Part shown: positions 15,894 to 44,427 of the stretch, in pieces
Layout of the letters: each line of letters opens with the position of its first letter
Numbering within the stretch: the first letter of the stretch is position 1
NCBI GenBank assembly: GCA_002069815.1
Contig: MWCB01000006.1
Coordinates: 1 to 58,414, forward strand
Length of the DNA: 58,414 nucleotides
Reading direction: 5' to 3'
Origin: Tenericutes bacterium ADurb.Bin239
GTDB taxonomy: Bacteria > Bacillota_I > Bacilli_A > RFN20 > CAG-826
Notes under the pieces: model-generated
What the model saw: only the letters and a program-made list of their open reading frames with translations
The model's database searches: none
Told to the model about the DNA's origin: nothing
Translations under genes and position numbers: made by a program

Positions 15894-15971
15894 CAACAAT
15901 AATAAAAAATTGCAAAATTAATAGAAACAAGGGTAAAAGTAGTTATTACTACTAATTTTTGAAATTTATTT

Positions 15972-15977: not shown

Positions 15978-15986
15978 ATGCATAGT

Positions 15987-26625: not shown

Positions 26626-26792
26626 ATTAATACACCTAATATCTATTCTATTTCTAGACTTTCTATTTATAATTTATTGCTTGGATTATATTTAACTTAG
26701 CAAAAATGTAGGGTGCTTTTCACTTGCTAAAAAGCAGTTCCCCACGAATCCGAATAACCTTATATTTTTCTAATTAAGCCCTAAATGAAGCA
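26626..26792 (-). other. Leader region of the ATPase gene
   Basis: About 170 bases lie between the terminator of the binding-protein gene and the ATPase start. On the transcribed strand TGCTTTT and AAAAGCA (plus about 26713-26735) can form a 7-base-pair stem. A TATAAT (plus about 26684-26689) follows with no convincing -35. I see no known riboswitch. The ATPase ATG has no strong ribosome binding site (AGGTGTATTA only). Confidence 0.4.
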
Positions 26793-26817
26793 AGAAAAAG
26801 GGGATTGCTCCCCTTCT
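26793..26817 (-). terminator. Terminator after the first BMP lipoprotein gene
   Basis: AAGGGG-AGCAAT-CCCCTT followed by TTTC on the transcribed strand, right after the stop. It probably makes the binding protein more abundant than the downstream transporter parts. Confidence 0.75.
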
Positions 26818-26819
26818 TC

Positions 26820-27920
26820 TTAGTTTGTTGGAGGGATGTATAAGTCTTCAACTACAACAATAACGGTTGGGACTTCTGATGCTTTAGCGTAGTCTTCATC
26901 AAGCGGAATATTTGAACGAATATTATCAGTGTCATCCACTAATCTTTGATAAATAGCGTTGTAATCTTCAACAGTAAATGTTCTAAATCTAGAATTTTCA
27001 ATAGGAAGTCCAACACCATCTTCAACAACGGTTAAGCGACTAACTTTACCGCCTGGGAATTCGCCATCTTTCCATTTTTGGAGCGTTTGATAAACCGAAC
27101 CAGCTAAGTTTTTGATGGCTGATGTAATCACACGTTCATGATCGCCAGATTGGTCAATATCAACACCAACAACATATTTTTCTGGTAATACTTCAGCCGC
27201 TGCCATAACGGAAAAGCCGACGGCACCACCACATGAGAAAATGACTTCAGTGCCACTGTTATACCACGAACCGGCTAAGGTTTGGTTTTCATTGGTAGCT
27301 TCAAAGTTACCAGCATAGTTGAATTTGAGTTCAACAGCGCCAGGAGTTAATTCTAACTCTTGAGCCGCAATATCAGCACCATTAATAAAGCCGTACCCAA
27401 AGCCGATAACAGCAGGATAAGCCTTCCCGCCTAAAAAGCCTAACTTACGGAATCCGTCTTTAACAAGTGCATAGCCAGCAAGGAAACCGGCTTCTTCTTC
27501 TTGATAGAAGATTGGAGCAGTATTATCCTTGATATCATAGACATAGTCTCCGCTATGGGGAGCTCCATCAAGAAGGATAAATTTAACATCTGGATACATG
27601 CTTTGTGCGCGATGAACGACAACTTCAAAGTTATAACCAGGTAAAACAACGACTTCAGCGCCATCTCCGATTGCTAAAGTGATACTGTCTAAGGTTGAGT
27701 CAATTGTTTCTTCTGCTGCATGATAATATTTAGCGTTAAGTTTGTTATCATCTGCAAAATCTTTGATACCAGCCCATGAACCTTGGTTAAAACCACCATC
27801 TTCTAATGTTCCGCCTGCGAAAATTATATGGGCGATGTCAACTTTTTCGGTTTCAGTACCACAAGATGCTAATGCAAAGCATGACAAAGCAAGAACAATG
27901 CCTAATAAATACTTTTTCAT
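26820..27920 (-). CDS. BMP-family (PnrA/Med-type) nucleoside-binding lipoprotein, copy 1
   Basis: This 366-residue substrate-binding lipoprotein has a signal peptide ending in the lipobox ASC (SCFALASCGTE). Its mature part follows the BMP fold (FAGGTLEDGGFNQGSWAGI, EVVVLPGYNFEVVV, GFLGGKAYPAVIGFGYGFINGA, GVDIDQSG). Family members such as PnrA bind purine or pyrimidine nucleosides. The start MKKYLLG is chosen because AAGGAG lies 7 bases upstream; the frame opens 7 codons earlier. It follows the uridine-phosphorylase-like gene and precedes the ATPase and permeases. Confidence 0.94.
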   Translation of the reverse strand: MKKYLLGIVLALSCFALASCGTETEKVDIAHIIFAGGTLEDGGFNQGSWAGIKDFADDNKLNAKYYHAAEETIDSTLDSITLAIGDGAEVVVLPGYNFEVVVHRAQSMYPDVKFILLDGAPHSGDYVYDIKDNTAPIFYQEEEAGFLAGYALVKDGFRKLGFLGGKAYPAVIGFGYGFINGADIAAQELELTPGAVELKFNYAGNFEATNENQTLAGSWYNSGTEVIFSCGGAVGFSVMAAAEVLPEKYVVGVDIDQSGDHERVITSAIKNLAGSVYQTLQKWKDGEFPGGKVSRLTVVEDGVGLPIENSRFRTFTVEDYNAIYQRLVDDTDNIRSNIPLDEDYAKASEVPTVIVVVEDLYIPPTN

Positions 27921-27991
27921 TTTATTTCTCCTTTCATTCAATAAGTATTTAGGTTTTTAACAATAAAATTATACCTTTTCATTCCCTCCTT

Positions 27992-28801
27992 TTATTTTTT
28001 CTTTTTAGCTTTTAACTGGTCTCTTTCATAGAGAAGGCGAACAGCTTCGTTTCCAGCCATCGCAAGTCTCTTAATATGATCAGGTGAATGATCTAAAGCT
28101 GTTTCTGGTTTAAATTTGCCAGAATCACCAGAGGCTTCAATAACGTTGTCTAAACAAACGGAAATTCCGCCTGCTCTTAAGCCCCAAACTCGGGCCAAAA
28201 CAAAGATAACACTCGCTTCCATTTCCGCACCAGGAATATTTAAGCGTTTTAAATCTTCAAAATGATATTGCCATTTTGATTGCCAATAGTTGTTATATGA
28301 TGACCCAGGCCGCCCGTGACCAGCGTAAAATGTATCCGCGGAACGGGTGATACCTACGTGATGGGGGAAACCTAATCCTTCGACAGCATTAATACATGCT
28401 TCAACAACATCATGGCTTGCAACAGCGGGATATTCAATTGGTGCGTAAAGCACAGAAGCGCCATCTAACCGCATTGCACCATCAAATATGACCATATCGC
28501 CATTTTTAACATGGTCAAGGAATGTACCGCAAGTACCAACCCTAATAAAAACTTCGGCGCCACATCTTGCTAATTCTTCCATAGCAATTGATGTTGATGG
28601 GCAGCCGATTCCAGTACTGGTACATGAGATGGGAACACCTTTATACTTTCCAGTGTAAGTCACATATTCACGATTATTTGCGACTTCTTTTGCTTCATCC
28701 CAAAAACTAGCGATTAGTCGAACACGATTGGGATCGCCAGGTAATAAGACGTACTTGGCAACTTCACCTTTGCCGACGCCGATGTGGTATTGTTTTACCA
28801 T
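27992..28801 (-). CDS. udp: Nucleoside phosphorylase, uridine-phosphorylase type
   Basis: This enzyme splits a nucleoside with phosphate into base and pentose 1-phosphate. The 269 residues carry the phosphate-binding pattern GDPNRV, NREY and FIRVGTCG, the DGASVLYAPIEYPAVA segment of uridine phosphorylases and the ribose-binding EME motif (GAEMEAS). The base pocket that reads YPGQER in E. coli Udp reads YAGHGR here: the Arg is kept and the Gln is not, so uridine is likely but not certain. It heads the first nucleoside operon behind a good promoter and would act on what the downstream transporter imports. Confidence 0.9.
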   Translation of the reverse strand: MVKQYHIGVGKGEVAKYVLLPGDPNRVRLIASFWDEAKEVANNREYVTYTGKYKGVPISCTSTGIGCPSTSIAMEELARCGAEVFIRVGTCGTFLDHVKNGDMVIFDGAMRLDGASVLYAPIEYPAVASHDVVEACINAVEGLGFPHHVGITRSADTFYAGHGRPGSSYNNYWQSKWQYHFEDLKRLNIPGAEMEASVIFVLARVWGLRAGGISVCLDNVIEASGDSGKFKPETALDHSPDHIKRLAMAGNEAVRLLYERDQLKAKKKK

Positions 28802-29022: not shown

Positions 29023-29098
29023 TGGTGAACCGTACAGGATTTGAACCTGTGACCCATTGATTAAGAGTCAATTGCTCTACCAACTGAGCTAACGGTCC
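29023..29098 (-). tRNA. tRNA-Lys, anticodon CTT
   Basis: The acceptor GGACCGT pairs with ACGGTTC, followed by A and an encoded CCA. The anticodon stem ATTGA/TCAAT encloses CTCTTAA, giving CTT, which reads AAG. The D-arm TAGCTCAGTTGGTAGAGCA and the T-loop TTCAAAT are canonical. It is a single tRNA between the two nucleoside operons. Confidence 0.95.
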
Positions 29099-29154: not shown

Positions 29155-29185
29155 CAAAAAAGCATAGCTGATACAACTATGCTTT
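29155..29185 (-). terminator. Terminator of the ten-gene operon (29211-39006)
   Basis: AAAGCATAG pairs with CTATGCTTT on the transcribed strand, followed by TTT, 25 bases after the TrpA-like stop. Confidence 0.88.
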
Positions 29186-29210: not shown

Positions 29211-29927
29211 TCATTTAGTGGCGGCTTTAAACTCTTTGATTTTCGCTTTTAAGGCGGGAACATCATTTTGAAGTTTTAAGAATGTACTACCAATAAAGGC
29301 GCCATCTGCTCCTGCATCTTTGACACGCTTAACATCTTCAACAGTAGAAACACCAACGCCACACATAATACGTTTGTTTTTGGCTTCATTTTTACGTAAA
29401 TAAGCAATTACTTCCCCGAGTGTTTTATAGTGTGAATGGGCTTTATCGCTCTTTGCTTGCAGATAGATGAAGCCGTTTGAGGTACGCGAAGCTTCAAGAT
29501 CTGCTTCAGGGAGATGTAGGGGCACATATTGCGCTAATTTAATGCCATGTGCTTTTAGGGTTTCTTTAATCTTTAAGTTATTACCACCGACATAAATTAA
29601 TTCAGTCAACTTGTGGCTTTCCATAAATTTTGCAAATTTTTCCACGCCAATTTGTTCAATTGTTTGTTCATAGGCCAAAATAAAGATTTCTTGTCGCGGG
29701 TATTTTTTTTGAATTTCAGTAATCGCCACCATATATTTATCGTAATCGCTGCACGCTTCAAGCGCTTTAATCATCCGATTCTGAATAAAAGGACTATCTA
29801 AGAATGGGTTTTTAGCAGGAAAGTCAATTTCTAACACATCTACGCCATTTTCAACGTAAATCTTCGCAACATCAAATGTGTCTTTAATCGTTAGATAACC
29901 AAGTGATAAATAACCAATTAACTTCAT
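29211..29927 (-). CDS. Orphan TrpA-like TIM-barrel lyase
   Basis: The 238 residues match the tryptophan synthase alpha-subunit fold: YLSLGYLTIKDTFDVAKIYVENGVDVLEIDFPAKNP, then LDSPFIQNRMI. Both catalytic acids of TrpA have counterparts (Glu in LEIDFP, Asp in LDSP). The phosphate-binding end GVGVSTVEDVKRVKDAGADGAFIGS is also kept. There is no trpB or other trp gene nearby, and the gene is the last of an operon of nucleoside transport and catabolism, so tryptophan synthesis is unlikely. TrpA catalyses a retro-aldol cleavage releasing glyceraldehyde 3-phosphate. A C-C lyase or related step on a phosphorylated sugar is my inference. CGGAGAG supports the start. Confidence 0.85.
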   Translation of the reverse strand: MKLIGYLSLGYLTIKDTFDVAKIYVENGVDVLEIDFPAKNPFLDSPFIQNRMIKALEACSDYDKYMVAITEIQKKYPRQEIFILAYEQTIEQIGVEKFAKFMESHKLTELIYVGGNNLKIKETLKAHGIKLAQYVPLHLPEADLEASRTSNGFIYLQAKSDKAHSHYKTLGEVIAYLRKNEAKNKRIMCGVGVSTVEDVKRVKDAGADGAFIGSTFLKLQNDVPALKAKIKEFKAATK

Positions 29928-29928
29928 T

Positions 29929-31086
29929 TTATTTCTCTCCGTGGAACGCTAGTAAAATTAACTTTTTAAATTGTTCCTTAGTTGGGCAAATTGGATTAGT
30001 TTTTGTACAACCGTCGGCAGCTGATAAATCAGCGATTTCATCAAGGTGAGCCATTAAATCTTCTTCTTTAACGAATTCACTTAAAGTTTTTGGAAACTCT
30101 AATACTTTCGTTAAATCGTTTAAGGCCGTCACCATATCTTTTTTGCCTAACATTTTGGCAAGTTCGTCATAGCGTTTTTTCGCTTCAACGTCTTGGGAAT
30201 TATATTTAACAACATGTGGTAAAAGAATCGCGTTACATGTGCCGTGTGGTAAATGTAAGACACCGCCCAAAGAGTGTGAAATTGAGTGAACCACACCAAG
30301 TGATACGTTAGTAAAAGATAAACCAGCAATTAACGATGCGTTTAACATTCTTTCACGTAACTCAATATTTTTTAAATCATTTATTACTTGTGGTAACACT
30401 TCAAAGATTTCCTTAATTGCAAAGCGCGCTAGCACATCGCTTAATACGTTTGCGCGACTAGAAACAAAGGCTTCAAGTGCATGACTTAACGCATCAAACC
30501 CCGTTTCAATTGTTAGGCGCCGCGGTTTCGATAATGTTGTCACTGGATCAAGAATGGCAACGTCTGGCATCATTTCCATATTGCCAATCCCATGTTTGTA
30601 ACCAGTCACGTCATCCGTAATAACGATTGACCGTGATACTTCACTCGCGGTACCCGCCGTTGTTGGGATTGCACCAAAGCGGGCTTTGCCGCGTAATTTA
30701 GGGAATTTTGACTTATCAGCGATTGTTTCTAAATCTTTAATTTCTGGATGCTCATAGTAAATCCACATCGCTTTGGCCGCATCCATCGTCGAACCACCCC
30801 CGATTGCTAAAATAAAATCAGGTTTTTCTTCAAGCATAAATTTAGCGCCTTTTAAGACGGTACTAAACTTTGGATCTGGTTCAATTCCCATATAGACTTT
30901 AAATGGTGTGCCCGCCTTTTTTAAATGTTTTTCAACGATGTCCATCACTCCGTTTTTATAAACGATGTCATCGCCAAGAACAATAACCATCTTTTTCGAT
31001 TTAATCGCTTCTAAATGTGCAAGAGCCCCTTGGCCAAAAATAAGTTCATCTCCTGCTAATTTCATTGGTCGCATTAGTGGTCTCAT
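29929..31086 (-). CDS. Iron-containing (group III) alcohol dehydrogenase
   Basis: The 385 residues follow the Fe-ADH family: NAD-binding GGGSTMDAAKAM, TTAGTASEVSRSIV, then the metal-binding region GFDALSHALEAFVS and SISHSLGGVLHLPHGTCNAILLPHV. Members reduce aldehydes (acetaldehyde, lactaldehyde, glycolaldehyde) to alcohols with NAD(P)H. In this operon it may reduce the aldehyde released by a sugar-phosphate lyase, disposing of reducing power. The start is uncertain: GGAG lies 15 bases before this ATG, and two further in-frame ATGs lie within 8 codons. Confidence 0.93.
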   Translation of the reverse strand: MRPLMRPMKLAGDELIFGQGALAHLEAIKSKKMVIVLGDDIVYKNGVMDIVEKHLKKAGTPFKVYMGIEPDPKFSTVLKGAKFMLEEKPDFILAIGGGSTMDAAKAMWIYYEHPEIKDLETIADKSKFPKLRGKARFGAIPTTAGTASEVSRSIVITDDVTGYKHGIGNMEMMPDVAILDPVTTLSKPRRLTIETGFDALSHALEAFVSSRANVLSDVLARFAIKEIFEVLPQVINDLKNIELRERMLNASLIAGLSFTNVSLGVVHSISHSLGGVLHLPHGTCNAILLPHVVKYNSQDVEAKKRYDELAKMLGKKDMVTALNDLTKVLEFPKTLSEFVKEEDLMAHLDEIADLSAADGCTKTNPICPTKEQFKKLILLAFHGEK

Positions 31087-31092
31087 AAATGT

Positions 31093-31878
31093 TTACTTAA
31101 TCTCCTTTACTTTATCCATGAATTCCTTCGTTAATTCATAAGATATCGGTTTGCTAATATCTTTACCTTCCTTAAAGGCCGAACCAATAATAGCGCCATC
31201 GGCGATGGCAAATTGTTCTTTAACGTTATTAACGCTAACACCACTACCAATCAAAACAGGAATCTTTACGTTTTTCTTCACTTGTTCAAGTGCTTCAATT
31301 GGGGTTTGTTGGCCCGTAGAAACACCAGTGACAATCACTGCATCAGCGCCACTAGATTGGGCCATCTTAGCTGAATCAATTAAAGAAATATCTTTCGATA
31401 ACATATAAGTATATTTAACTTGGATATCGGCTAATATTTTTACTTTTTCAGCACCTAAAAGTTTACGATAGCGCGTTGCTTCAACAGCGACTGGATACAA
31501 AATACCGCCATGATATATAACCGTATCAACATAAACTGGCAACCGCACAAAATCAAGATCTAATGCTTTACAAATCGCTAATCCTGTTTTATAGTCGTTA
31601 AACGCCGCATCGAGTCCAATTGGTATTTTTACTGCCTTTTTAATTAAAGCAGAAACTGCTGAGAGAAAAATTGCTTGTTCAAAGTTTAATTTTTCACCAA
31701 GGGGGTTGTCTCCCATGTTTTCAATCATAATCGCGTCAACGCCTGCTTTTTCTAAAGTTTTAGCGTCGTTAATTGCCCACTTAATAATTTCCTTGTTATT
31801 GTCTTTATAATCGGGTGTGCCAATCAGCGGTTTTAAGTGGACCATCCCAATTACTAAATTCTTTTTGAATAATCCCAT
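31093..31878 (-). CDS. BtpA/SgcQ-family TIM-barrel protein
   Basis: The 261 residues match the BtpA/SgcQ family: VIGMVHLKPLIGTP at the N-terminus, AGVDAIMIENMGDNP, FVRLPVYVDTVIYHGG, LADIQVKYTYML, SSGADAVIVTGVSTG and GSGVSVNN. BtpA was named from cyanobacterial photosystem I assembly and SgcQ from an uncharacterised E. coli sugar operon; the enzymatic activity of the family is not established. The barrel with a C-terminal phosphate-binding pattern suggests a sugar-phosphate isomerase, epimerase or lyase. It overlaps the upstream phosphorylase gene by one base. Confidence 0.9.
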   Translation of the reverse strand: MGLFKKNLVIGMVHLKPLIGTPDYKDNNKEIIKWAINDAKTLEKAGVDAIMIENMGDNPLGEKLNFEQAIFLSAVSALIKKAVKIPIGLDAAFNDYKTGLAICKALDLDFVRLPVYVDTVIYHGGILYPVAVEATRYRKLLGAEKVKILADIQVKYTYMLSKDISLIDSAKMAQSSGADAVIVTGVSTGQQTPIEALEQVKKNVKIPVLIGSGVSVNNVKEQFAIADGAIIGSAFKEGKDISKPISYELTKEFMDKVKEIK

Positions 31879-32633
31879 TATTTTTCTCCCTTGTTTAATC
31901 GATAAATACTTTCAAGCGCAATGCGGCATAATTCGTCTTCAGCCTTTACGCGAACATCACCGTCAATTGAATCTTTATAATTTTCTAAAACGGTAACAAG
32001 GGTGAGAATAGCGGTCTTAACGTTCATAAGACGGCCTAAGACTAACATACAGGAGCTTTCCATATCAAGCCCAGCGACACCCATTTTTTTCGCTTCGGCA
32101 AATACTTTAAAGACATCAGTGCCACGTTCTTTGGCAAGTTTTGATTCCTTCATTTGTGAATAATAGCCATCAAGTGTCATATTAAGTCCATTATCGACAA
32201 TTTTACCAAAATCACGAACGGTCTTTGAGATAATGTTTACAAAATCAAAATTGGCCACTGCTGGATAATTAACTTCAATATAAGTTTCGCTCGTGCTTTC
32301 TCTTCTAACTGAAGCAACGGGGACAATATAGTGTCCTAAAAGCTCATCTTTCAAAGACATAACTGTACCCATCCGTAAGGCCACTTTCATCCCGCAATTA
32401 TACATTTCTTCCATCGCTATTGCCGCGGAAGGAGCGCCAATTCCGGTTGACGTAATCGTCACAGGTATTCCTTTATAAGTTCCAGTATAAGTGTTGTACT
32501 CTCTGGCAAAAGCAACCTTTTTTGGATTGTCTAAATATTCTTTTAAAACTTCGACGCGCCACGGGTCACCTGAGAAAATAACATTTGGGGCAATTGTTTT
32601 ATCAGTGCCCTTCATATAAATTGTTGGTTTCAT
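31878..32633 (-). CDS. Divergent nucleoside phosphorylase (PNP/UDP superfamily), copy 2
   Basis: The 251 residues follow the PNP/UDP fold: SGDPWRVE, AREYNTYTGTYKGIPVTITSTGIGAPSAAIAMEEM, RMGTVMS and the ribose-binding DMESSCM. It differs from the 27992 enzyme in the base pocket, where SADTFYAGHGR is replaced by MTLDGYYSQMKES, and the DGAS segment reads RRESTSETYIEVNYPAVA. A different or modified nucleoside is therefore likely. The start overlaps the kinase stop as ATGA. Substrate cannot be read from sequence. Confidence 0.9.
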   Translation of the reverse strand: MKPTIYMKGTDKTIAPNVIFSGDPWRVEVLKEYLDNPKKVAFAREYNTYTGTYKGIPVTITSTGIGAPSAAIAMEEMYNCGMKVALRMGTVMSLKDELLGHYIVPVASVRRESTSETYIEVNYPAVANFDFVNIISKTVRDFGKIVDNGLNMTLDGYYSQMKESKLAKERGTDVFKVFAEAKKMGVAGLDMESSCMLVLGRLMNVKTAILTLVTVLENYKDSIDGDVRVKAEDELCRIALESIYRLNKGEK

Positions 32634-33571
32634 AATTCTTCCCCCTTAAAATTTTTGTCATATCTTTCTTTTAATGTTTCTAAAGTAGGACTATTAGTAG
32701 TACACCCAACTTCTTCAATGATAAATGAAGATATTGTGCTTCCTAATCTTCCCGCTTTTTTATAACCTAAATTATTTAAATACCCATATAAGAACCCAGC
32801 AATATAAGCATCACCTGCTCCTGCGGTGTCTAAAATTCGCTTTGGTTTAACTACCGGAATTTCAATAATTTCGTTCTCGCGTGTATAGATTGTGCTTCCT
32901 CTGCTTCCTTTAGTCACCGCTATTATTTTGAGTTTAGGAAATTTAAAGAAAGCACTAATGCTATTAAGTTTAAACCATTGCCGCAATACACTCATTTCAT
33001 ATTCATTCGCAAAGATAATTTCAACCAAATTAAAGATTTCTTCTAACACATCAATACTAAAGGTTGTTTCATCTAATTTCATGCCGAAGGCAAGTGGAAC
33101 ATTATATTTTTTTACTAACCTTATTGTTTCAAGGAGATCTGCTTTTGCGTTAATAGTTATAACAACCATCCGTGCATTTTTAAATAGTTCTTCATCATAG
33201 GGCACAAAGTTTTCATCACTATGAGCACCTGGATGAAATAAAGTTACATGATCACCAGTTTCCGTTTGCAGTAAATATCCAAAACTTGTTATTTTGTCAT
33301 CAACCTTCATGATTCCAGATAAATCGACATTATTGTTCTTTAAATATTCCGCTAATTTAATCTGTTCAAAATCTTTTCCCACCCTAATAAGCGGGGTATT
33401 GGGGACATTTAGTTTGCCTAAAATAACGGCGATATTAATTGAGCAACCGCCATAAAATATGTCGTTGCTATCTTGATTTAATATTATTGAACTATGACCG
33501 ACCATCGGCGCCTTATTAAGCTTGACGATTCGATCCATGCTTGGATAACCAGTAATTAGTACTTTTTTCAT
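32630..33571 (-). CDS. PfkB-family sugar/nucleoside kinase
   Basis: The 313-residue kinase has the PfkB N-terminal GG motif (FYGGCSINIAVILGKL, about 40-54) and the C-terminal DTAGAGD signature at 248-254 with catalytic Asp254. The family includes ribokinase, nucleoside kinases and the archaeal ribose-1-phosphate kinase. Given the neighbouring phosphorylase, phosphorylation of a pentose 1-phosphate, a free pentose or a nucleoside is possible. It ends in TGA overlapping the next ATG and starts one base inside the cysteine-hydrolase stop. Confidence 0.92.
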   Translation of the reverse strand: MKKVLITGYPSMDRIVKLNKAPMVGHSSIILNQDSNDIFYGGCSINIAVILGKLNVPNTPLIRVGKDFEQIKLAEYLKNNNVDLSGIMKVDDKITSFGYLLQTETGDHVTLFHPGAHSDENFVPYDEELFKNARMVVITINAKADLLETIRLVKKYNVPLAFGMKLDETTFSIDVLEEIFNLVEIIFANEYEMSVLRQWFKLNSISAFFKFPKLKIIAVTKGSRGSTIYTRENEIIEIPVVKPKRILDTAGAGDAYIAGFLYGYLNNLGYKKAGRLGSTISSFIIEEVGCTTNSPTLETLKERYDKNFKGEEL

Positions 33572-34140
33572 TACAAAGTTCCCGTATTAATTAATTCGCT
33601 AAATTCGTCTAATGATATAACTTTTCCCAAATACTTATGAATATCACGTAAGTAAATGTTATTGGTTTCTTCATCGCTTGTTCCCACGCATTCCCTAATT
33701 ACATACACGTTATAATCTAAATAGTATCCATCTATCACGGTTGCGTGAATACAATTGTTTGTTTTGGCGCCCACTAGCACAATGTTTTTGATATTGTTTT
33801 CACGTAATATTAAGTCTAAGTCAGTACCAAAGAATGAACTGTAACGACGTTTTTGCACAATATAATCTTTTTTATAATCGATTTTCAGTAAATCGGTAAT
33901 TTCTTCACCGCCAGTTCCTTCAATACAACAAGGGCGCATATTTTCTAAGTTTTTATCAAACTTATCCTTGCGATATCGGTGTTGAATGAAAATAACGAGA
34001 TGATTGTGTTTACGGGCGATGGCAAGTGCTTTGTTAATATTAGGAATAAGTTTCAAACTTACGGAATAGAAAACTCTTCCCGTTGGATCAACAAAATCGT
34101 GAACCATATCTACCACAATAAAAGCTGTTTTAGTTGACAT
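33571..34140 (-). CDS. Isochorismatase-like cysteine hydrolase
   Basis: The 189 residues have the triad of the family: Asp11 (VVDMVHDF), Lys97 (VQKRRYSSFFGTDL) and Cys130 (VGAKTNNCIHAT). Members hydrolyse amides, ureides or vinyl ethers (nicotinamidase, ureidoacrylate amidohydrolase RutB, isochorismatase). The metal-binding WHxxH stretch of nicotinamidases is not evident (QHRYRKD instead). In this operon it could process the base released from the nucleoside; this is inference. It overlaps the permease gene by 11 bases. Confidence 0.9.
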   Translation of the reverse strand: MSTKTAFIVVDMVHDFVDPTGRVFYSVSLKLIPNINKALAIARKHNHLVIFIQHRYRKDKFDKNLENMRPCCIEGTGGEEITDLLKIDYKKDYIVQKRRYSSFFGTDLDLILRENNIKNIVLVGAKTNNCIHATVIDGYYLDYNVYVIRECVGTSDEETNNIYLRDIHKYLGKVISLDEFSELINTGTL

Positions 34141-35062
34141 AATGAGACCCCCTATCTAATTTATTTTTTGGCTTTAACAGCGAATTAATTGTTAGAACAA
34201 TGACAATGGTAATATAAGGAACCATTTTTAATATACCCGCTATTTCTTTATTGATAATACCAATATTCATCGCTATTGATTGCATGAGACCAAAAATAAC
34301 AGCGTATAATGTTGTTAATCCTGGTTTCCCGTCACCACAATAGAAAGCGGCAATAGCGATAAAGCCAGTACCAGCAATAACGACTGGAGTGAATAAGCGA
34401 ACTCTCTCTATTGCAATATTGAAGCCAGCAAATCCAACAATAATAGCTGACATTATAAGTACTAAATATTTGACCCTATTAACTTTAATCCCCACTGAAC
34501 GGGCCGCTTCTTCATTTTCCCCAATAACTTGTGTATATGTCCCCATTTTCGTTTTATATAAGAAAATAGAAACAAATATGAGCAATATGACTGTGAGAAA
34601 CACCATCGGTGTATGCCCGCTTAGGAGTGACCCTAAAATCGGAATATCTTTAATTCCAGGAATAATTAGTTGCATTTTCCGTTCTTCAATGCCAACGGTA
34701 ATATCATTTCCAACTATTCTGCCCATTTTATTTAAAAGTTTAATAACAAACCCACCAGTTGCTAACGATAAAATATTGATAGCAAAACCTGTTATGACAA
34801 AATTGGCTTTTTGCGAGATAGCAAAAAATGAATAAACTAAGCCTAATAACCCTGAAACAATCACGGTAGCAATTAGCCCGTATATGTATGATCCAGTTAG
34901 TTTTATGACCGTGGCACTAACTAGCGCGCTGAAAACCATAAACCCTTCTAGCCCAATGTTAACAATGTTGATTTTATAGGATAATAGCCCGCCTAATGCA
35001 CTAAGAATAATCGGTACAGAAAATATAATAGTCTGCGTAATAATACTACTTAGTAAATCCAT
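34130..35062 (-). CDS. BMP-type ABC transporter permease (NupQ-like), copy 2
   Basis: The 310-residue membrane protein parallels the permease at 22927: YKINIVNIGLEGFMVFSALV, KANFVITGFAINILS and YTQVIGENEEAARSVGIKVNRVKYLVLIMSAIIVG. It pairs with the 35064 permease. I chose the start MDLLSSII because GAGGAGG lies 9 bases upstream; the longer frame opens with TTG inside that site. Confidence 0.92.
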   Translation of the reverse strand: MDLLSSIITQTIIFSVPIILSALGGLLSYKINIVNIGLEGFMVFSALVSATVIKLTGSYIYGLIATVIVSGLLGLVYSFFAISQKANFVITGFAINILSLATGGFVIKLLNKMGRIVGNDITVGIEERKMQLIIPGIKDIPILGSLLSGHTPMVFLTVILLIFVSIFLYKTKMGTYTQVIGENEEAARSVGIKVNRVKYLVLIMSAIIVGFAGFNIAIERVRLFTPVVIAGTGFIAIAAFYCGDGKPGLTTLYAVIFGLMQSIAMNIGIINKEIAGILKMVPYITIVIVLTINSLLKPKNKLDRGSHYVN

Positions 35063-35063
35063 A

Positions 35064-36281
35064 CTATTTATCCTCCTCAATCATTTTATCGTTGTTAATT
35101 TTGTTGCGTTTTTCCGCTTTTTTAGCTTTTCTTATTGCTTTAGAAAGTCCAATCTTTTCTTCGATATTATGAATAAAGTGCTTAATTTTAATATATGACG
35201 GAGCATTCTTTCCTTTCACCATTTTTACTGATAAAAATAAAATGAGTAGCGCTTGAATAACGGTAACAACTTCCGAGGGAACATCTGTAAGAATAGCGAC
35301 CTGACCACTTCCAACTTTTAGGATCCCATAAAATAAAGCAGCAACAAATGCCCCTTCTGGAGCGTGGCCACCGAGTAGGGAAATTACCATTCCATCCCAA
35401 CCTAATCCTGGATTGGTCGAAAAGGTTCCCGAATACGTATACTGATCAGTCATTAACCAGCCCGCTCCTGCTAAACCAGCAATTGCTCCGCTCATTAACA
35501 TAATAATGATAATTTTATTTCGAACTTTAATTCCAACTGCTTCTGAAAATTGTAAATTGGATCCTAAACTCCGAATTTCATATCCGATTTTTGTTTTTCG
35601 ATATAAAAACCAAACAATAACAAAAACAGCCAGAGCAATAAAGAAAAAAGCTGTAAGTTGGGTGTTACCAAATCCTTTAAATATAGCGTTATTACCAACC
35701 ATGTGGGTTGATAAAATTCCAGACCGTTCATCACGGAATGGTCCTTCGGTTAATACTTTCAGTATTTCAATAATCGCATAGTTCAAAAGTAGCGTTACAA
35801 CCATCTCATTGACATTTAAATATGCTTTTAAGAGCGCGGGGATAACCGCAGTTAAAGTTCCAACTACTAGCGCAATAAGCAGCAATAAAGGAATTAACAC
35901 ACCTTTAGGGAGTGCTTGCCATTGATATCCTAGTACCGCAGTTGTAAATCCTGCGACAATAATTGAACTTTCAACCCCCATATTAAATAAGCCTGCTTTG
36001 AAACTAATCATAATAGCAAGACCAGCAAGTAATAAGGGACCCATGTGATGCAAAATGCGCGCAAACCCTCCTTTAACAAAAGGAGCATTTAAAATAGCGC
36101 CATACACCATAAACGGATTTTCTTTACTAATTAAAATCGGGATTAACGCCATCACAAACGCTAATAAAACTGGGACAATGATATTAATAGCACTTGAAAT
36201 AGTCGTGGCTTTTCGCTCAACAGTTACTGGATTAATTTTTAATTCTTCGCTAATTGCTACACTGCCATTTTTATTTGCCAT
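35064..36281 (-). CDS. BMP-type ABC transporter permease (NupP-like), copy 2
   Basis: The 405-residue protein has about ten membrane segments and family motifs AGLAIMISFKAGLFNMGVESSIIVAGF, LNVNEMVVTLLLNYAI and IRSLGSNLQFSEAVGIKVRNKI. The C-terminal tail is long and basic then acidic (RKAKKAEKRNKINN). It overlaps the ATPase gene by 11 bases and ends one base before the next permease start. Confidence 0.92.
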   Translation of the reverse strand: MANKNGSVAISEELKINPVTVERKATTISSAINIIVPVLLAFVMALIPILISKENPFMVYGAILNAPFVKGGFARILHHMGPLLLAGLAIMISFKAGLFNMGVESSIIVAGFTTAVLGYQWQALPKGVLIPLLLLIALVVGTLTAVIPALLKAYLNVNEMVVTLLLNYAIIEILKVLTEGPFRDERSGILSTHMVGNNAIFKGFGNTQLTAFFFIALAVFVIVWFLYRKTKIGYEIRSLGSNLQFSEAVGIKVRNKIIIIMLMSGAIAGLAGAGWLMTDQYTYSGTFSTNPGLGWDGMVISLLGGHAPEGAFVAALFYGILKVGSGQVAILTDVPSEVVTVIQALLILFLSVKMVKGKNAPSYIKIKHFIHNIEEKIGLSKAIRKAKKAEKRNKINNDKMIEEDK

Positions 36282-37821
36282 CGCTCACACCTCCCATTAG
36301 TAAACCTAGTTTTTCCGTTGTAGCGTCTTTTCCTAATACTTCGCCAATTACTCGTCCTTCATACATTACTAATATTCGATCAGATAAACTCATAATTTCC
36401 GTTATTTCGTTCGAAATAAGTAATACTGCTTTCCCGCTTTCAGCAAAATTGATAATGGCATTGTGAACGAATTCAATGGCGCCAATGTCAACACCACGCG
36501 TTGGCTGACTAGCAATTAGCAGTTCTGGATTTTTTTCTAACTCGCGCGCTATGATAACTTTTTGGGCATTCCCGCCTGATAATTGCGAGACGTATCCTCT
36601 TCGGTCACTAACCCGAATATCATATTTTTCAATAGCGGCTTCGCGTTTTTCCACAATTTCCTTATTTTTTAATACACCTAACTTGCTTATTTGTTTATCG
36701 GAAAGACAACCAGCAATAATATTTTCGCTAATGGTCATGTCACGATTAACACCATGTACATAACGGTCCTCAGGAATGATACTAATACCCGCCTCACGCA
36801 ATTCCTTTGGCCACTTGTTAGTAAGGCGTTTATCATATAAAAAGATATCGCCAGCAGTAGAGCAAATCATCCCAGTTAGTAATCCCACTAGTTCACTCTG
36901 CCCGTTACCATCAACACCGGCAATACCTAAAATTTCACCTTTTCTAATGTTAAAAGAAACATCGTTAACAACAAGTTTGCCATCTTTATTTTTAGTAGTT
37001 AAACCGCAAACTCTATAAACAACGTCATCATCTTCTTCAAAACATAAATGTTCTTTTTTAATATCTAATAAAACATCTCGGCCGACCATCATTCCCGCTA
37101 ATTCAGCTTGTGATGTATCTTTGGTCCGCACTGATCCAACTAGTTTTCCGCGTTTAATAACATAGACTCGATCACTAATATCTAGCACTTCTTGAAGCTT
37201 ATGCGTAATGATAATAATTGTTTTCCCCTTTGCTTTCATTTGTCGCATGCTGTCAAATAGTTCGTCAATCTCTTGCGGAATTAAAACGGCAGTCGGCTCA
37301 TCAAAGATTAATATATCTGCTTCCTTGTGAAGCATCTTTAAAATTTCAACTTTTTGTTGAGCGCCGACTGATAGATCTTTAATCTTATCGGTCGCTTTTA
37401 AATCAAATCCTGATGTCTTTATTAGGTCTTGTATTTCCTCAATTTGAGTCTTTCTGTCGATAAAAGGTGTTTTTAGTGATTTATTTTTAAGTTTAATCTC
37501 CTTTGTTTTTTCTCTACCCAAAAAGATATTGTCACTAACGGATAAGGAGGACACTAACTTAAAGTGCTGGTGCACCATACCGATGCCAGCTTCAATGGCA
37601 TCGGTAGGTGACTTAAAATCTACTTCTTTTCCTCGAACAAGGATGTGACCACTTGTAGGTTTTAAAAGACCAAATAACATATTCATCAAGGTTGATTTGC
37701 CAGCGCCATTTTCACCAACAATCGCTAAGATTTCTCCTTCATTAGCGTGTAGTGAAATATTATCGTTAGCAACAAATTCACCGAATTTCTTCGTTAAATT
37801 TTGAATTTCAACAACCTTCAT
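36271..37821 (-). CDS. BMP-type ABC transporter tandem ATPase, copy 2
   Basis: The 516 residues have two ABC domains as in the 25099 protein: Walker A GENGAGKST, Walker B ILIFDEPTAVL and a second domain with GVDGNGQSE and LSGGNAQKV. It energises the two downstream permeases. It lies 27 bases after the binding-protein gene and belongs to the ten-gene operon. Sequence similarity to the first set is clear but not close, so the two transporters are not a recent duplication. Confidence 0.94.
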   Translation of the reverse strand: MKVVEIQNLTKKFGEFVANDNISLHANEGEILAIVGENGAGKSTLMNMLFGLLKPTSGHILVRGKEVDFKSPTDAIEAGIGMVHQHFKLVSSLSVSDNIFLGREKTKEIKLKNKSLKTPFIDRKTQIEEIQDLIKTSGFDLKATDKIKDLSVGAQQKVEILKMLHKEADILIFDEPTAVLIPQEIDELFDSMRQMKAKGKTIIIITHKLQEVLDISDRVYVIKRGKLVGSVRTKDTSQAELAGMMVGRDVLLDIKKEHLCFEEDDDVVYRVCGLTTKNKDGKLVVNDVSFNIRKGEILGIAGVDGNGQSELVGLLTGMICSTAGDIFLYDKRLTNKWPKELREAGISIIPEDRYVHGVNRDMTISENIIAGCLSDKQISKLGVLKNKEIVEKREAAIEKYDIRVSDRRGYVSQLSGGNAQKVIIARELEKNPELLIASQPTRGVDIGAIEFVHNAIINFAESGKAVLLISNEITEIMSLSDRILVMYEGRVIGEVLGKDATTEKLGLLMGGVSDGK

Positions 37822-37848
37822 GATTATCTGTCTTTCTTTTTTTATTTT

Positions 37849-39006
37849 TTAGTTTGCAAATGTAATATTGGTTAAGGCAGCGGTGTCTAGTGTTTCACCT
37901 CTTTGAGCATCAACAACATCGATCTCACCAGCAATAATTGCTGTTTCTAAGTTTTGTATCTTTTGTTTAATTTCGGCCCATTTTGCTGCTGCGGGATCCG
38001 TTTGGGCTAGGAAGCCAGAAATTGTTGCTAAATCAGTGATACCAGTACCCAAACTCTTTAAGTCATAATAGCGGGTTGTAGCACCATCTTTAAGGGTTCC
38101 TTCCAATAATTCCTTGGTTATATCGTAAGTAACGGCATCCGTTTTCTTAAGCACACTTGTTAAAACATGTCCTGGTTTTAATGCATCTTGGTTTGCGTCG
38201 ACATCAACCATTAAACGCTTAGCGGTTTCCGCTTCGTTTCTAATGTTAGAAGCAACACCACCTGCCGCACCATAAACAATGTTAACGCCTTGATTGTAAA
38301 ATTCTTTGACCATGTTAGCGTTGGCAGCTGATGCCCCAAAACCTGCTGTGGTATTTTCATAATAACGATAGTTAACTTCTAATTCTTGGGCAATATGATT
38401 AGCGCCTTCGACGTATCCATAACCGAAAACACGGATACCATTAGAGTTAGATCCACCAACGAACGCTAATGCACGATCATCGGCAAAATTATATCCAGTT
38501 GGTAACAAAAGGTCTCGATTTTCGTTTACTAAAACACTTAATGCTCCCGCTAGGAATGAAGATTCGTTAACGCTAAAGAGTATTTCAATTACGTTATCAT
38601 GAATTCTTTCTCCTGCATCGTTGGTATTGGCAAATTCGTTAAATACAACGTATGTTGTATTTGGATAGCGTTTTGCAATTGGATTACCTCCAGCATAATT
38701 TAAAATAAGGGTTTCAAAGTTATATTCGAGCGTAAATACTAAATCATACTCTTGTTCGCCGAGTGTGTTCAATATTGTCGTAATGTTTGCTGGAGTAGTA
38801 AAGTCTACCGTTTTGATAGATACATTATCATATTCTGCAGCAATTTTGTTTAAACCAGCAACCGCGAATTGGTTGTAACCATTGTCTTGCAAGGTTGCCT
38901 CCGAAGCAATAAGCCCCACCTTGAACTCTTTTCCCCGCTCGCCACGGCAAGCAATCAGAGATGTCGATAATAAAACTAGACCGACTAATGCAAATAATTT
39001 TTTCAT
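37849..39006 (-). CDS. BMP-family nucleoside-binding lipoprotein, copy 2
   Basis: The 385 residues begin with a lipoprotein signal peptide (FALVGLVLLSTSLIAC, lipobox LIAC). The mature part follows the BMP fold (LIASEATLQDNGYNQFAVAGL, FTLEYNFETLIL, FVGGSNSNGIRVFGYGYVEGANHIA, VDVDANQD). It is the first gene of the operon and probably sets the substrate range of the import system. GGAGGAAACGC precedes the ATG. The ligand pocket differs from copy 1, so the substrates probably differ. Confidence 0.93.
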   Translation of the reverse strand: MKKLFALVGLVLLSTSLIACRGERGKEFKVGLIASEATLQDNGYNQFAVAGLNKIAAEYDNVSIKTVDFTTPANITTILNTLGEQEYDLVFTLEYNFETLILNYAGGNPIAKRYPNTTYVVFNEFANTNDAGERIHDNVIEILFSVNESSFLAGALSVLVNENRDLLLPTGYNFADDRALAFVGGSNSNGIRVFGYGYVEGANHIAQELEVNYRYYENTTAGFGASAANANMVKEFYNQGVNIVYGAAGGVASNIRNEAETAKRLMVDVDANQDALKPGHVLTSVLKKTDAVTYDITKELLEGTLKDGATTRYYDLKSLGTGITDLATISGFLAQTDPAAAKWAEIKQKIQNLETAIIAGEIDVVDAQRGETLDTAALTNITFAN

Positions 39007-39045
39007 GCGTTTCCTCCTTTCATTATTGCAATTTGTCTTACACGT

Positions 39046-39059
39046 TGAAACCTGTAACT
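39046..39059. promoter_or_regulatory. Imperfect second LacI-type operator
   Basis: TGAAACCTGTAACT matches the reverse complement of the 39089-39102 operator at 11 of 14 positions. The centres are 43 bases apart, about four helical turns. It lies in the leader of the ten-gene operon. Confidence 0.4.
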
Positions 39060-39088
39060 TAAATATCGCAAGTAGCGATCATAACTAA

Positions 39089-39102
39089 TGTAACCGGTTT
39101 CA
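39089..39102. promoter_or_regulatory. cre-like / LacI-family operator
   Basis: On the transcribed strand TGAAACCGGTTACA matches the catabolite-responsive element consensus TGWAANCGNTNWCA at every position. It overlaps the predicted transcription start of the ten-gene operon, the usual site for repression by CcpA or another LacI-family protein. Confidence 0.65.
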
Positions 39103-39107
39103 CTTCT

Positions 39108-39135
39108 ATTTTAGTACACGCGAGCAATGAGTAAA
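39108..39135 (-). promoter_or_regulatory. Promoter of the ten-gene nucleoside operon
   Basis: TTTACT (plus 39130-39135) and TAAAAT (plus 39108-39113) are 16 bases apart. The start site falls at about 39101, inside the operator, about 95 bases before the binding-protein ATG. Confidence 0.6.
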
Positions 39136-39182
39136 TGAATTTAATAAGTCTTTTTTAGGGTTTGATGATTTTTAGCACTTAA

Positions 39183-39209
39183 AAAAGGCCCCAGTAGGCT
39201 GGGGCCTTC
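39183..39209 (-). terminator. Terminator of the sugar ABC operon
   Basis: AAGGCCCCAG pairs with CTGGGGCCTT around a 4-base loop, followed by TTTT on the transcribed strand. Confidence 0.93.
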
Positions 39210-39227
39210 GTCAGCGTTAACTAATTA

Positions 39228-40538
39228 TTACACTACTGGAGGGGTTAAGGATAAGCTTCCTTCAAACGCAAATGGCGCTAAGGTGATAGCGTCATAGGCG
39301 CCAAGTGGACCAGTAAAGTAAATATCAGCGGTTGGGTTAGCGACAAAGAAGTCTCTAAACGCTGCTTGATCGTCAATGCCCATGTGGTAGTTAAGTGAAA
39401 GTTTAACTTCAAATTCAAAGTTATTACCATCTTTACCAGTTAAGACGACATCAGCGTGTTTACCTAATTCTAAGGAACCAGGTTCAACAGGATTGCCATC
39501 ACGATCAAGCATTTTTTTGTAACGAAGTGGGAAGTTAAGAATAACAGTCGTTCCCACTTTATGTTTGAGTGGTCCGCTTAATTCATTACCAATGTCGAGT
39601 TGTTCCGCAAAATCGTTAGCGTTAACAACGATTGCTTCTGGTGCAGCGATAGTGGGGTGATCAGCGGCCGCCACTTCAGTAACCCGTTTAATCCATTGTA
39701 ATTGTGGTAAACCATGGTAAACGGTATATTGACCGATTACTTCGTATAATTTACCAATTTGCATATATTCACGGTAGTCATTAATTTTGAAGAGACCTAA
39801 TGCAACATCGCCATCACAAATAACACCGTTATTCCAGTCGGCAAAGTACCCGTTGAAGTAACCATACACTTTAACAATTTTGCCCATTGGCTGAGCCCGC
39901 GCTTCATCTAAAGTGAATTCATAAATAATTTCTTGCGGATGAAGAATCATATCGATATTGAATCGCGTTGAACGTTCACCAATATGAATGGTCGCATATA
40001 AACGCGCCGCTTTTGCTGGGGGAACAGTATGAATTGGGTTACCGCCACTGTCGTACTCGGCATCATAGCGCGGGTAGTCAGGAATAGCGTAATCGTCACC
40101 CTTATCATCAACCGCAAATTCAAAACTAGCGTAGTTTTCACCTTCGAGATACGAATAGGTAACAGTATATTCTGGATAGAGATAGACGCCATTAATTTCG
40201 TCTTCATATTTTAATTCTCCGTAGGTAATGAGAATTAAGTCGTTACCATACTTTAATTCGGGAATTGGTAACGGTGGTTCAGCATCGGCCCGAAATACGT
40301 TGGTCGGAATCGTGCTTCCCGTTCTTTCTATAACTAGTGGAACACTTCTTGCAATATAGTTAACAGCAATATTGTGTTCTTCATCGGTAAGAACTACTTC
40401 AGGCTCACTTATTGATTCGCCTGTAGTACTTACACTCGGCCCTTCGCTTTGTGGTGCTTCTGAACTTGGGTCTTTACAACCAGCGAGTAAGCCAACAATC
40501 GCAAATAGTAAGCCAATTTTTAGAAATGTCTTTTTCAT
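39228..40538 (-). CDS. Lipoprotein with probable OB-fold domain, in sugar ABC operon
   Basis: The 436 residues begin with a lipoprotein signal peptide (LLFAIVGLLAGC) and a Ser/Glu/Pro-rich spacer. A beta-rich domain follows (about 60-200). The segment MGKIVKVYGYFNGYFADWNNGVICDGDVALGLF...GKLYEVIGQYTVYHGLPQLQ (about 217-285) resembles an OB-fold, and a last domain runs about 300-436. It is the last gene of the operon, after the solute-binding protein, so it may assist polymer or oligosaccharide capture. No named family was recognised. Confidence 0.85.
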   Translation of the reverse strand: MKKTFLKIGLLFAIVGLLAGCKDPSSEAPQSEGPSVSTTGESISEPEVVLTDEEHNIAVNYIARSVPLVIERTGSTIPTNVFRADAEPPLPIPELKYGNDLILITYGELKYEDEINGVYLYPEYTVTYSYLEGENYASFEFAVDDKGDDYAIPDYPRYDAEYDSGGNPIHTVPPAKAARLYATIHIGERSTRFNIDMILHPQEIIYEFTLDEARAQPMGKIVKVYGYFNGYFADWNNGVICDGDVALGLFKINDYREYMQIGKLYEVIGQYTVYHGLPQLQWIKRVTEVAAADHPTIAAPEAIVVNANDFAEQLDIGNELSGPLKHKVGTTVILNFPLRYKKMLDRDGNPVEPGSLELGKHADVVLTGKDGNNFEFEVKLSLNYHMGIDDQAAFRDFFVANPTADIYFTGPLGAYDAITLAPFAFEGSLSLTPPVV

Positions 40539-40563
40539 ATTTTTCTCCTTTTATTATTTATTT

Positions 40564-42153
40564 TTAACTTTGAACATACCGCGCAAGTTTGACAACAACA
40601 TCGTTTAAAACTTGTTCTGGTGTTTTACCTTTGAATAATTCAGCCATAACTGATTCGACGGTATTGCGGATTTCACTTGAACCAAGGAAGCCTGGATCAA
40701 CAAACTTAATCCACTTTTTATCAGGATTCATATAAACATCTGCTTGGAGTAACGCCGTCTTTCGAATTACTTTTTCGCGTTCCGTTCCATCAGTTTGTTG
40801 TAAGAACTGGCTATACATTAAGTAATCTTGATAGCGTTGGCTGTTAGGATCAATCTTCGTGGGGTCTAAGACGGGGAAGTAGGACGTTGCTTTTCCAAAT
40901 TCGTAATTTGCTTCATAAGTTAAGAAGCGAAGGAGACGCCACGCCGCTAACCGTTCGGCTTGAGCTTTAGGATCAGCACCACGACCAACAGCAAAAATAG
41001 CAAGGTTGGTGCCTTGGGCAATAACCGATTTAGCCGCAACTAAATCACCATTGTATGGAATCGCATTAATTGATAAATCAAATGGATAATCGGTGGTGCC
41101 CCCTGGTAAATTTTCACCAACACCAGCACTACTACTAATCGTTAAGACGAGTTTACCTTCTTTAAAGGGGACGGATGAATAGAGCGCTTGCCCAAAGTTA
41201 TCAGGTAAACCAATAATTCCATCATCGTAAAGTTGTTTAAAGTAAGCAAGGGCGGCTAAGGTTTTCGTACGGTGTGGTTCTTCTTGGAAACGAATGTATC
41301 CATTTTGAATCGTACTTCCTTTTTCAGTATAAGCTGCACCCCATTGCTTGATAGTCGTAATAAAGAAGTTACTAGCGCTATCCCAGCTGAAGGGGATAAA
41401 TTGTTCTTCGCTAACTAAACTCATATCAACCGCAATGTCTGGTTTTAAATTAGGATCAAAATTTTCTGGTTTAGGAACAGCTGTTCCATCTTTCTTAACT
41501 AACTTACCAAACCATCCATTATTTTTGGCAACGGCTTTTAGTTTAGGACCAACGACCGCTAAATCTTGCCATGTTTTGGGAATAAAGATGCTAGCATCCT
41601 TTTTCTTAGCGGCATCAAAGAAACTTTGGTTAGCAATCATAACTTCGGTTGACTTATTAAAAGGTAATCCGTATGTTGCTTGGTCCGATAAAGCATGAAT
41701 TTCCGCCATATAGTCGGCGTTATATTCATCAATATTAACTCCGTATTGTGGGTGGTTAATATAGTTTGTGGGGTTACCAATGTTCACTAAAATATTTGCA
41801 TTAATGTAACCGACTAAGTGGTCTGGATAACCATTAGCGATATGGGGATACGTATTGGTGCTAATTGAGCCGTTAATGGCTTGTTGAAGGTTTGGATACC
41901 CTTGTTTTGATTCATATAGCACACGAATATCGGGGTTTTCACTCTCAAAGCGAGTAAAGAGAGGGGTTAGGGCACTCGTAACCGATGAGCCAAACCCAGT
42001 CCAAAACTTAACTTCAATTTTTTCACCTGTGTATGGGAGAGAATCCCCACTTGTGGTTACAGTTTCCGATGGCATCGATGGACGTAAACAACCCGCAAGC
42101 GTCGCTAGTGTTAAGACCGATACCGCTGTAAATATGAATTTTCTAAATTTCAT
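40564..42153 (-). CDS. Carbohydrate ABC transporter solute-binding lipoprotein (family 1)
   Basis: The 529 residues begin with a signal peptide and lipobox LAGC. The mature part follows extracellular solute-binding family 1 (VKFWTGFGSSVTSALTPLFTRFESENPDIRV, YGLPFNKSTEVMIANQSFF, FKEGKLVLTISSSAG). It is longer than the 410-450 usual for maltose or glycerol-phosphate binding proteins, with insertions around 215-260. It delivers an oligosaccharide to the two upstream-encoded permeases. The sugar is not identifiable; the starch-binding surface proteins at 52749-58333 make maltodextrins plausible. Confidence 0.92.
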   Translation of the reverse strand: MKFRKFIFTAVSVLTLATLAGCLRPSMPSETVTTSGDSLPYTGEKIEVKFWTGFGSSVTSALTPLFTRFESENPDIRVLYESKQGYPNLQQAINGSISTNTYPHIANGYPDHLVGYINANILVNIGNPTNYINHPQYGVNIDEYNADYMAEIHALSDQATYGLPFNKSTEVMIANQSFFDAAKKKDASIFIPKTWQDLAVVGPKLKAVAKNNGWFGKLVKKDGTAVPKPENFDPNLKPDIAVDMSLVSEEQFIPFSWDSASNFFITTIKQWGAAYTEKGSTIQNGYIRFQEEPHRTKTLAALAYFKQLYDDGIIGLPDNFGQALYSSVPFKEGKLVLTISSSAGVGENLPGGTTDYPFDLSINAIPYNGDLVAAKSVIAQGTNLAIFAVGRGADPKAQAERLAAWRLLRFLTYEANYEFGKATSYFPVLDPTKIDPNSQRYQDYLMYSQFLQQTDGTEREKVIRKTALLQADVYMNPDKKWIKFVDPGFLGSSEIRNTVESVMAELFKGKTPEQVLNDVVVKLARYVQS

Positions 42154-42200
42154 ATACCTTTTTCCTTTCTTGTATTAATTATATAACGATTAGTGAGTCA

Positions 42201-43262: not shown

Positions 43263-43277
43263 TGCTTCAACCTCCTT

Positions 43278-44384: not shown

Positions 44385-44427
44385 GGCCTACCTCCTTTCG
44401 TGCATACATATGGGTCATCGCGCTACC

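Follow-up and report, generated by a model that had tools for sequence, protein, structure and literature searches.

Layout and conservation of the operon

We analyzed the 58,414-nt contig MWCB01000006.1 of Tenericutes bacterium ADurb.Bin239 (assembly GCA_002069815.1), referred to here as the window, with a focus on an operon of ten genes predicted to serve the uptake and breakdown of nucleosides. The ten open reading frames are all located on the minus strand between positions 29211 and 39006, and all ten products match named families above the curated Pfam cut-offs. From its upstream to its downstream side, the operon and its flanking elements are arranged as follows:

39089..39102, no strand assigned: match to the cre (catabolite-responsive element) consensus TGWNANCGNTNWCA, a predicted catabolite repression site, upstream of the first gene
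37849..39006, minus strand: BMP/PnrA-type nucleoside-binding lipoprotein, first gene (Pfam Bmp, 108.8 bits)
36271..37821, minus strand: tandem-domain ATP-binding cassette (ABC) ATPase (two ABC_tran domains, Pfam)
35064..36281, minus strand: permease A (BPD_transp_2, 131.6 bits)
34130..35080, minus strand: permease B (BPD_transp_2, 91.7 bits)
33571..34140, minus strand: isochorismatase-fold cysteine hydrolase (Isochorismatase, 141.1 bits)
32630..33571, minus strand: PfkB kinase, candidate ribose-1-phosphate or nucleoside kinase (PfkB, 133.1 bits)
31878..32633, minus strand: nucleoside phosphorylase of the uridine phosphorylase/hexameric purine nucleoside phosphorylase family (PNP_UDP_1, 94.7 bits)
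31093..31878, minus strand: BtpA/SgcQ-family TIM barrel, candidate sugar-phosphate isomerase (BtpA, 206.7 bits)
29929..31086, minus strand: iron-type alcohol dehydrogenase (Fe-ADH), candidate aldehyde reductase (Fe-ADH, 153.3 bits; ADH_Fe_C, 175.1 bits)
29211..29927, minus strand: TrpA-like barrel, candidate aldolase (Trp_syntA, 99.9 bits)
29159..29185, minus strand: terminator-like hairpin just past the last gene, with a 12-pair stem followed by a T-rich tail TTTGGTTTTA

The widest spacing in the operon is a gap of 27 bases between the Bmp and ATPase genes. Overlaps of 11 bases between the ATPase and permease A, 17 bases between the two permeases, 11 bases between permease B and the hydrolase, 1 base between hydrolase and kinase, 4 bases between kinase and phosphorylase and 1 base between phosphorylase and BtpA follow, and the last three genes are separated by 6 bases (BtpA/ADH) and 1 base (ADH/TrpA-like). 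Coordinates, Pfam matches and hairpin agree with the initial annotation of this DNA, which had named the ten genes and described spacings of no more than 27 bases and a single terminator.

When about 85,000 species genomes were scanned, 77 loci were recovered from Bacillota, Mycoplasmatota, Actinomycetota, Chloroflexota and Spirochaetota. Gene order was counted in the 66 loci whose TrpA-like gene is preceded by 9.5 kb of sequence or more, and in 63 of these all ten genes are present in identical order and on the same strand. This synteny is far beyond chance and supports that the ten genes form one functional unit. With full gene order in several phyla, the operon also passes the co-conservation check on the BtpA, TrpA-like, PfkB and phosphorylase genes that had been proposed along with the initial annotation. 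The three exceptions are L101, which lacks the Fe-ADH gene, L104, which lacks the BtpA gene, and L118, where permease B, hydrolase and kinase were not found. In L104, from Sporolactobacillus shoreae, the phosphorylase and Fe-ADH genes abut, and a canonical-type BtpA protein is encoded elsewhere in the genome. One operon lacks BtpA and one, that of genome G022, lacks Fe-ADH. Furthermore, about 17 loci carry a gene for a VOC/glyoxalase-fold protein next to the operon or within it (about 152 residues; e.g. L049:10809-11267, L043:412-882 and L103:4661-5233).

Phosphorylase, kinase and importer alone would make up a salvage unit, and the BtpA, Fe-ADH and TrpA-like genes could merely be carried along with it in an old conserved block. 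We regard such ordinary nucleoside salvage as very unlikely, given that these three genes are kept in order in the same 63 loci from several phyla and that the catalytic residues of the Fe-ADH and TrpA-like proteins are intact.

Among close relatives, the TrpA-like protein is present in only two of 58 genomes, the window's own genome counted. In the second of these the BtpA and phosphorylase genes adjoin the TrpA-like gene, and the surrounding region contains the operon block with Fe-ADH missing. Across 395 genomes of the class, the TrpA-like family, with E values below 1e-54, is set apart by a sharp gap from true TrpA, whose E values are above 1e-20. The eight of these genomes that encode phosphorylase orthologues (E below 1e-119) are precisely those that have the TrpA-like gene. 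The hosts belong to Clostridia, Bacilli, Mollicutes-like bacteria, Olsenella and its relatives, Anaerolineaceae and spirochaetes, and include culturable gut and environmental bacteria such as Coprococcus comes, Robinsoniella peoriensis, Ruminiclostridium papyrosolvens, Clostridium pascui, Vagococcus humatus and Olsenella. In a tree of the TrpA-like proteins the rows from Actinomycetota, Chloroflexota and Spirochaetota are nested among Bacillota, which suggests horizontal transfer.

Predicted functions of the operon proteins

Matches of the Bmp protein in the Protein Data Bank (PDB) include TmpC/PnrA, BmpA and BmpD, and its lipobox cysteine, Cys20, is kept in 63 of 66 rows. The nucleoside site of BmpA contains stacking aromatics and a ribose-facing aspartate and lysine (PMC13325309). 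The equivalents of the aromatics (Tyr44 and Phe223) and of the ribose-facing pair (Asp270 and Lys287) are conserved, and the position of BmpA Asp98 is taken by an invariant asparagine, Asn123. Lipoprotein, double ATPase, two BPD_transp_2 permeases and nucleoside-site residues, the elements of a BMP/PnrA importer, are thus all found. These sequence features support the prediction that a nucleoside would enter the cell through a BMP-type ABC transporter encoded by the operon.

In the phosphorylase, all 72 rows have Arg26, Arg44, Arg87, Thr90 and the Met191-Glu192 pair. The three arginines are those that bind phosphate in uridine phosphorylase, and the Met-Glu pair is its ribose contact. By its family and these residues the protein qualifies as the predicted nucleoside phosphorylase of a pentose bisphosphate pathway; phosphorolysis would yield the base and a sugar 1-phosphate, most likely ribose 1-phosphate. 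The uracil-recognition region differs from that of uridine phosphorylase. Moreover, Tyr6 is invariant (72 of 72) at the position where uridine phosphorylase has the histidine that faces the 5'-hydroxyl of the nucleoside.

The PfkB kinase retains the ribokinase-type substrate residues Asp13, Gly41-Gly42 and Asn46 as well as the catalytic Asp254. Two further conserved residues, Arg63 and Lys165, are specific to this family and are lacking at the aligned positions of MJ0406, the only PDB match below 1e-15, which is known as an archaeal nucleoside kinase and not as a ribose-1-phosphate kinase. Against two models of ribose-1-phosphate kinases the protein scored 71.3 and 70.4 bits, with cut-offs of 500 and 330, respectively. 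The kinase would phosphorylate the sugar phosphate at C5, most likely giving ribose 1,5-bisphosphate, and the order of the two steps may be reversed. In that case PfkB would make a nucleoside 5'-monophosphate, from which the phosphorylase would release the base and ribose 1,5-bisphosphate in the manner of archaeal nucleoside monophosphate phosphorylases, leaving the rest of the route unchanged. MJ0406 as nearest solved kinase, the fixed kinase-then-phosphorylase gene order and the replacement of the 5'-hydroxyl-facing histidine by Tyr6 are in line with this order, and the phosphorylase of a neighbouring gene set (27992-28801) retains the histidine. However, the operon phosphorylase shows no obvious conserved basic cluster for a 5'-phosphate, and Arg63 and Lys165 of the kinase could bind a sugar phosphate instead. 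We consider the kinase-first order unlikely and describe the route with phosphorolysis as the first step.

Asp11, Lys97 and Cys130 of the cysteine hydrolase are kept in 95% or more of 69 rows, and its gene is present at the same place of the operon in 65 of 66 loci. Its PDB relatives, all of low similarity, are amidohydrolases, nicotinamidases and RutB. An assignment as nicotinamidase was rejected, as the similarity is merely generic. Its probable substrate is the base or a modified nucleoside.

The TrpA-like protein scored 89.4 bits against the trpA equivalog model and thus stays below the cut-off of 102.35. Its AlphaFold2 model has a mean confidence (pLDDT) of 95.9 and finds TrpA (3pr2) as best PDB match, with an E value of 4.6e-18 and a template modelling (TM) score of 0.87. 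The protein shares with the alpha subunit of tryptophan synthase the fold, both catalytic acids and the conserved glycines of the C-terminal phosphate-site region. The equivalent of TrpA Glu49 is Glu33, kept in 78 of 78 rows, and the position of Asp60 is acidic in all 78 rows (Glu in 64, Asp in 14). It differs from the alpha subunit by an identity of only about 21% in the fold alignment, by its score below the trpA cut-off, by the lack of trpB and by its place in a nucleoside operon. The window's genome, 94% complete, yielded neither trpB nor another TrpA-like match. A role in tryptophan synthesis was rejected because of the missing trpB and the clear score gap to true TrpA. Since the acids and the fold of TrpA are kept in a genome without trpB, sequence and model suggest that the TrpA-like protein probably serves as a C-C lyase in catabolism. 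Its two conserved catalytic acids make it a better aldolase candidate than BtpA. By a TrpA-type retro-aldol reaction it would cut the sugar phosphate, giving a triose phosphate and an aldehyde of two carbons, free or phosphorylated.

The BtpA protein belongs to subfamily TIGR00259 (204.6 bits, cut-off 153.4) and has no close relative of solved structure. Its AlphaFold2 model (pLDDT 94.4) resembles phosphate-binding barrels such as ThiE, PriA/HisA, HisF, Rpe and NanE at TM scores of about 0.6. With so many different phosphate barrels as nearest folds, the structure is not decisive for the function. Elsewhere in the class, BtpA genes are found in several cases beside phosphotransferase system (PTS)-like genes and in two cases beside an epimerase-like gene, as judged from protein lengths and N-termini only, and these contexts do not point to any one reaction. 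At L169 and L170 (G271), BtpA lies beside ribulose-phosphate-epimerase-like genes, and at L169 also beside a class II aldolase-like gene (length and N-terminus only). No paper reporting an enzymatic activity for the BtpA family was found. In 30 genomes with the operon, no protein scored above the cut-off for ribose-1,5-bisphosphate isomerase (TIGR00511 family). The isomerase of the route would thus be another protein, with BtpA as the operon's candidate, which would rearrange the bisphosphate by an aldose-to-ketose isomerisation.

A more distant TrpA-like protein (37% identical) is encoded together with BtpA in L041 (G332, 9586-16035), the only such arrangement seen in 392 genomes. There, the pair flanks a DeoR regulator, a sorbose/mannose-type PTS (IIA, IIB, IIC, IID) and a beta-lactamase-fold hydrolase, and no kinase or phosphorylase of the type present in the ten-gene operon was seen in this PTS operon. 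The location of the pair in a PTS operon hints that the BtpA and TrpA-like barrels may jointly convert a sugar phosphate of any origin.

The metal ligands of the Fe-ADH (Asp198, His202, His267 and His281) are conserved. Against the GlycoaldRedHalo model the protein reached 20.2 bits, the cut-off being 550. It would reduce the short aldehyde released by the TrpA-like protein. Phosphorylase, candidate isomerase, candidate aldolase and alcohol dehydrogenase would also be enough for a version of the dihydroxyacetone phosphate (DHAP) shunt for 5'-deoxynucleosides. 5-Deoxyribose 1-phosphate would then be isomerised by BtpA and cleaved by the TrpA-like protein to DHAP and acetaldehyde, which Fe-ADH would turn into ethanol; the altered 5'-contact residue of the phosphorylase would speak for this version. 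The published DHAP shunt, however, uses an MtnA-type isomerase and a class II aldolase, neither of which is found among the ten proteins. Furthermore, the conserved PfkB kinase with its ribose-type substrate motifs would be idle on a sugar without a hydroxyl at the 5-position. We give this version hardly any credence and rejected it, as it leaves the kinase without a role.

A proposed catabolic route

Taken together, the ten genes may encode nucleoside import, phosphorolysis, a kinase step, isomerisation, TrpA-type cleavage and aldehyde reduction as one catabolic operon. Based on sequence and analogy, we judge the chances for and against this route to be about even. The substrate and intermediates, the order of kinase and phosphorylase, the reaction of BtpA, the bond that is cut and the identity of the aldehyde are inferred. 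Of the similar route in the initial annotation, the functional unit, nucleoside import, phosphorolysis and the PfkB step find support in families, residues and synteny, and the isomerase and aldolase assignments, the substrate, the formation of ribose 1,5-bisphosphate and the role of the hydrolase stay conjectural.

Several observations weigh against the route. The nearest solved kinase, as described above, is known as a nucleoside kinase. The isomerase role of BtpA is a guess from the fold class of its model and by elimination. No phosphatase is encoded among the ten genes, so that ribulose 1,5-bisphosphate, if cleaved directly, would release glycolaldehyde phosphate, which is not a usual substrate of an Fe-ADH. 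For a cut by the TrpA-like protein to release glyceraldehyde 3-phosphate, its substrate would have to be an open-chain pentose 5-phosphate. The absence of BtpA from L104 and of Fe-ADH from G022 implies that these two steps are not strictly tied to the operon. Finally, ordinary nucleosides already have a route in the hosts, as transketolase was found in 19 of 19 and deoC in 29 of 30 of them. The operon would thus be an additional route and not a gap-filler; a replacement of a missing deoC or pentose phosphate pathway was rejected on the same counts.

With deoC and transketolase present, the substrate might also be an unusual nucleoside. The operon might salvage modified or unusual nucleosides, e.g. 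nicotinamide- or carboxamide-bearing or tRNA-derived ones, with the hydrolase trimming the base and the unusual enzymes handling an unusual sugar. In addition to the host genes, the asparagine always found in place of Asp98 in the binding protein, the replaced uracil-recognition region of the phosphorylase and the hydrolase gene at its constant place speak for such a substrate. In contrast, kinase and phosphorylase retain standard ribose-binding residues, and nothing points directly to a particular base or sugar. Salvage of this kind appears improbable to us, and ribose 1-phosphate from a nucleoside is kept here as the most likely starting sugar.

Genomic setting and relation to known pathways

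In 63 loci a protein of a GntR/UTRA regulator cluster is encoded, mostly directly upstream of Bmp, as an eleventh gene of the operon in relatives. The operon in the window lacks this regulator and has the cre-like site in its upstream region (39006-39228) instead. The site is the only match to the consensus in the window, where 0.26 would be expected, and as a putative cre site it would fit a carbon-use operon under catabolite control. The genome holds LacI/CcpA-family proteins, none of them above the ccpA cut-off. Such a site is found upstream in only two of 66 other loci, and the cre site was hence rejected as a general feature of the operon.

Downstream of the operon, a tRNA-Lys gene (29023-29098) separates it from a second, simpler nucleoside unit on the minus strand (22927-28801). 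This unit encodes the PNP_UDP_1 phosphorylase mentioned above, a Bmp lipoprotein, an ABC ATPase and two permeases, and has no kinase, BtpA, ADH or TrpA-like genes. On the other side, a sugar ABC transporter set (39228-45828, minus strand) comprises a solute-binding protein, two permeases and a MalK-like ATPase together with a 436-residue lipoprotein-like open reading frame without Pfam match. Three tandem paralogues of about 570 residues (52749-58333, minus strand; neighbours 44-47% identical) each have a CBM26 starch-binding match and a signal-peptide-like N-terminus.

The sgc operon of Escherichia coli also encodes a BtpA-family protein, SgcQ, along with a PTS transporter and a ribulose-phosphate-epimerase-like partner. 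Both operons would place a BtpA-family protein in sugar uptake and catabolism, and the one described here differs by having a nucleoside ABC importer, a phosphorylase and a kinase in place of the PTS and the epimerase-like partner.

The pentose bisphosphate pathway of Thermococcales uses an ADP-dependent kinase, ribose-1,5-bisphosphate isomerase and Rubisco (PMC9700705). Like the route proposed here, it leads from nucleosides via ribose 1-phosphate to ribose 1,5-bisphosphate. Its isomerase was not found in the 30 genomes with the operon, and no Rubisco is found among the operon genes. In the non-carboxylating pentose bisphosphate pathway of haloarchaea, a phosphorylase, a PfkB-family ribose-1-phosphate kinase, an isomerase, an aldolase and a glycolaldehyde reductase act (Sato et al. 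2022; PMC9700705); after ribose-1,5-bisphosphate isomerase, a phosphatase makes ribulose 1-phosphate for a FucA-like aldolase (PMC9700705). This pathway shares with the operon a phosphorylase of the uridine phosphorylase family, a PfkB kinase and the conversion of nucleoside ribose to a triose phosphate and a two-carbon alcohol, which here is proposed. The operon differs in that it has BtpA, the TrpA-like barrel and a different Fe-ADH where the haloarchaeal pathway has its isomerase, phosphatase, FucA-like aldolase and reductase, and in its dedicated importer, its cysteine hydrolase and its bacterial hosts. Neither a HAD-type ribulose-1,5-bisphosphate phosphatase nor a FucA-type ribulose-1-phosphate aldolase is found among the ten genes; no genome-wide search was made. 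Transfer of one known pathway by family name alone was rejected, as its ribose-1,5-bisphosphate isomerase was not found in the 30 genomes with the operon. By analogy, the logic of the pathway would not be wholly new, and its enzymes and bacterial setting would be.

No paper describing the operon or its route of sugar breakdown was found, nor one on a combination of BtpA, TrpA-like and Fe-ADH proteins, in agreement with the initial annotation, which had called this combination undescribed. Overall, we tentatively propose, with somewhat more doubt than confidence, that the operon represents a widespread bacterial pentose-bisphosphate route in which BtpA would be a new type of isomerase and a TrpA descendant a new aldolase, yielding a triose phosphate and a reduced two-carbon alcohol. 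Since the operon occurs in culturable bacteria, this proposal is directly testable. If true, it would provide the first enzymatic role for the BtpA family and a case in which a barrel of tryptophan biosynthesis has become a catabolic aldolase, and bacteria would have a second way to degrade nucleoside sugars beside the pentose phosphate pathway.

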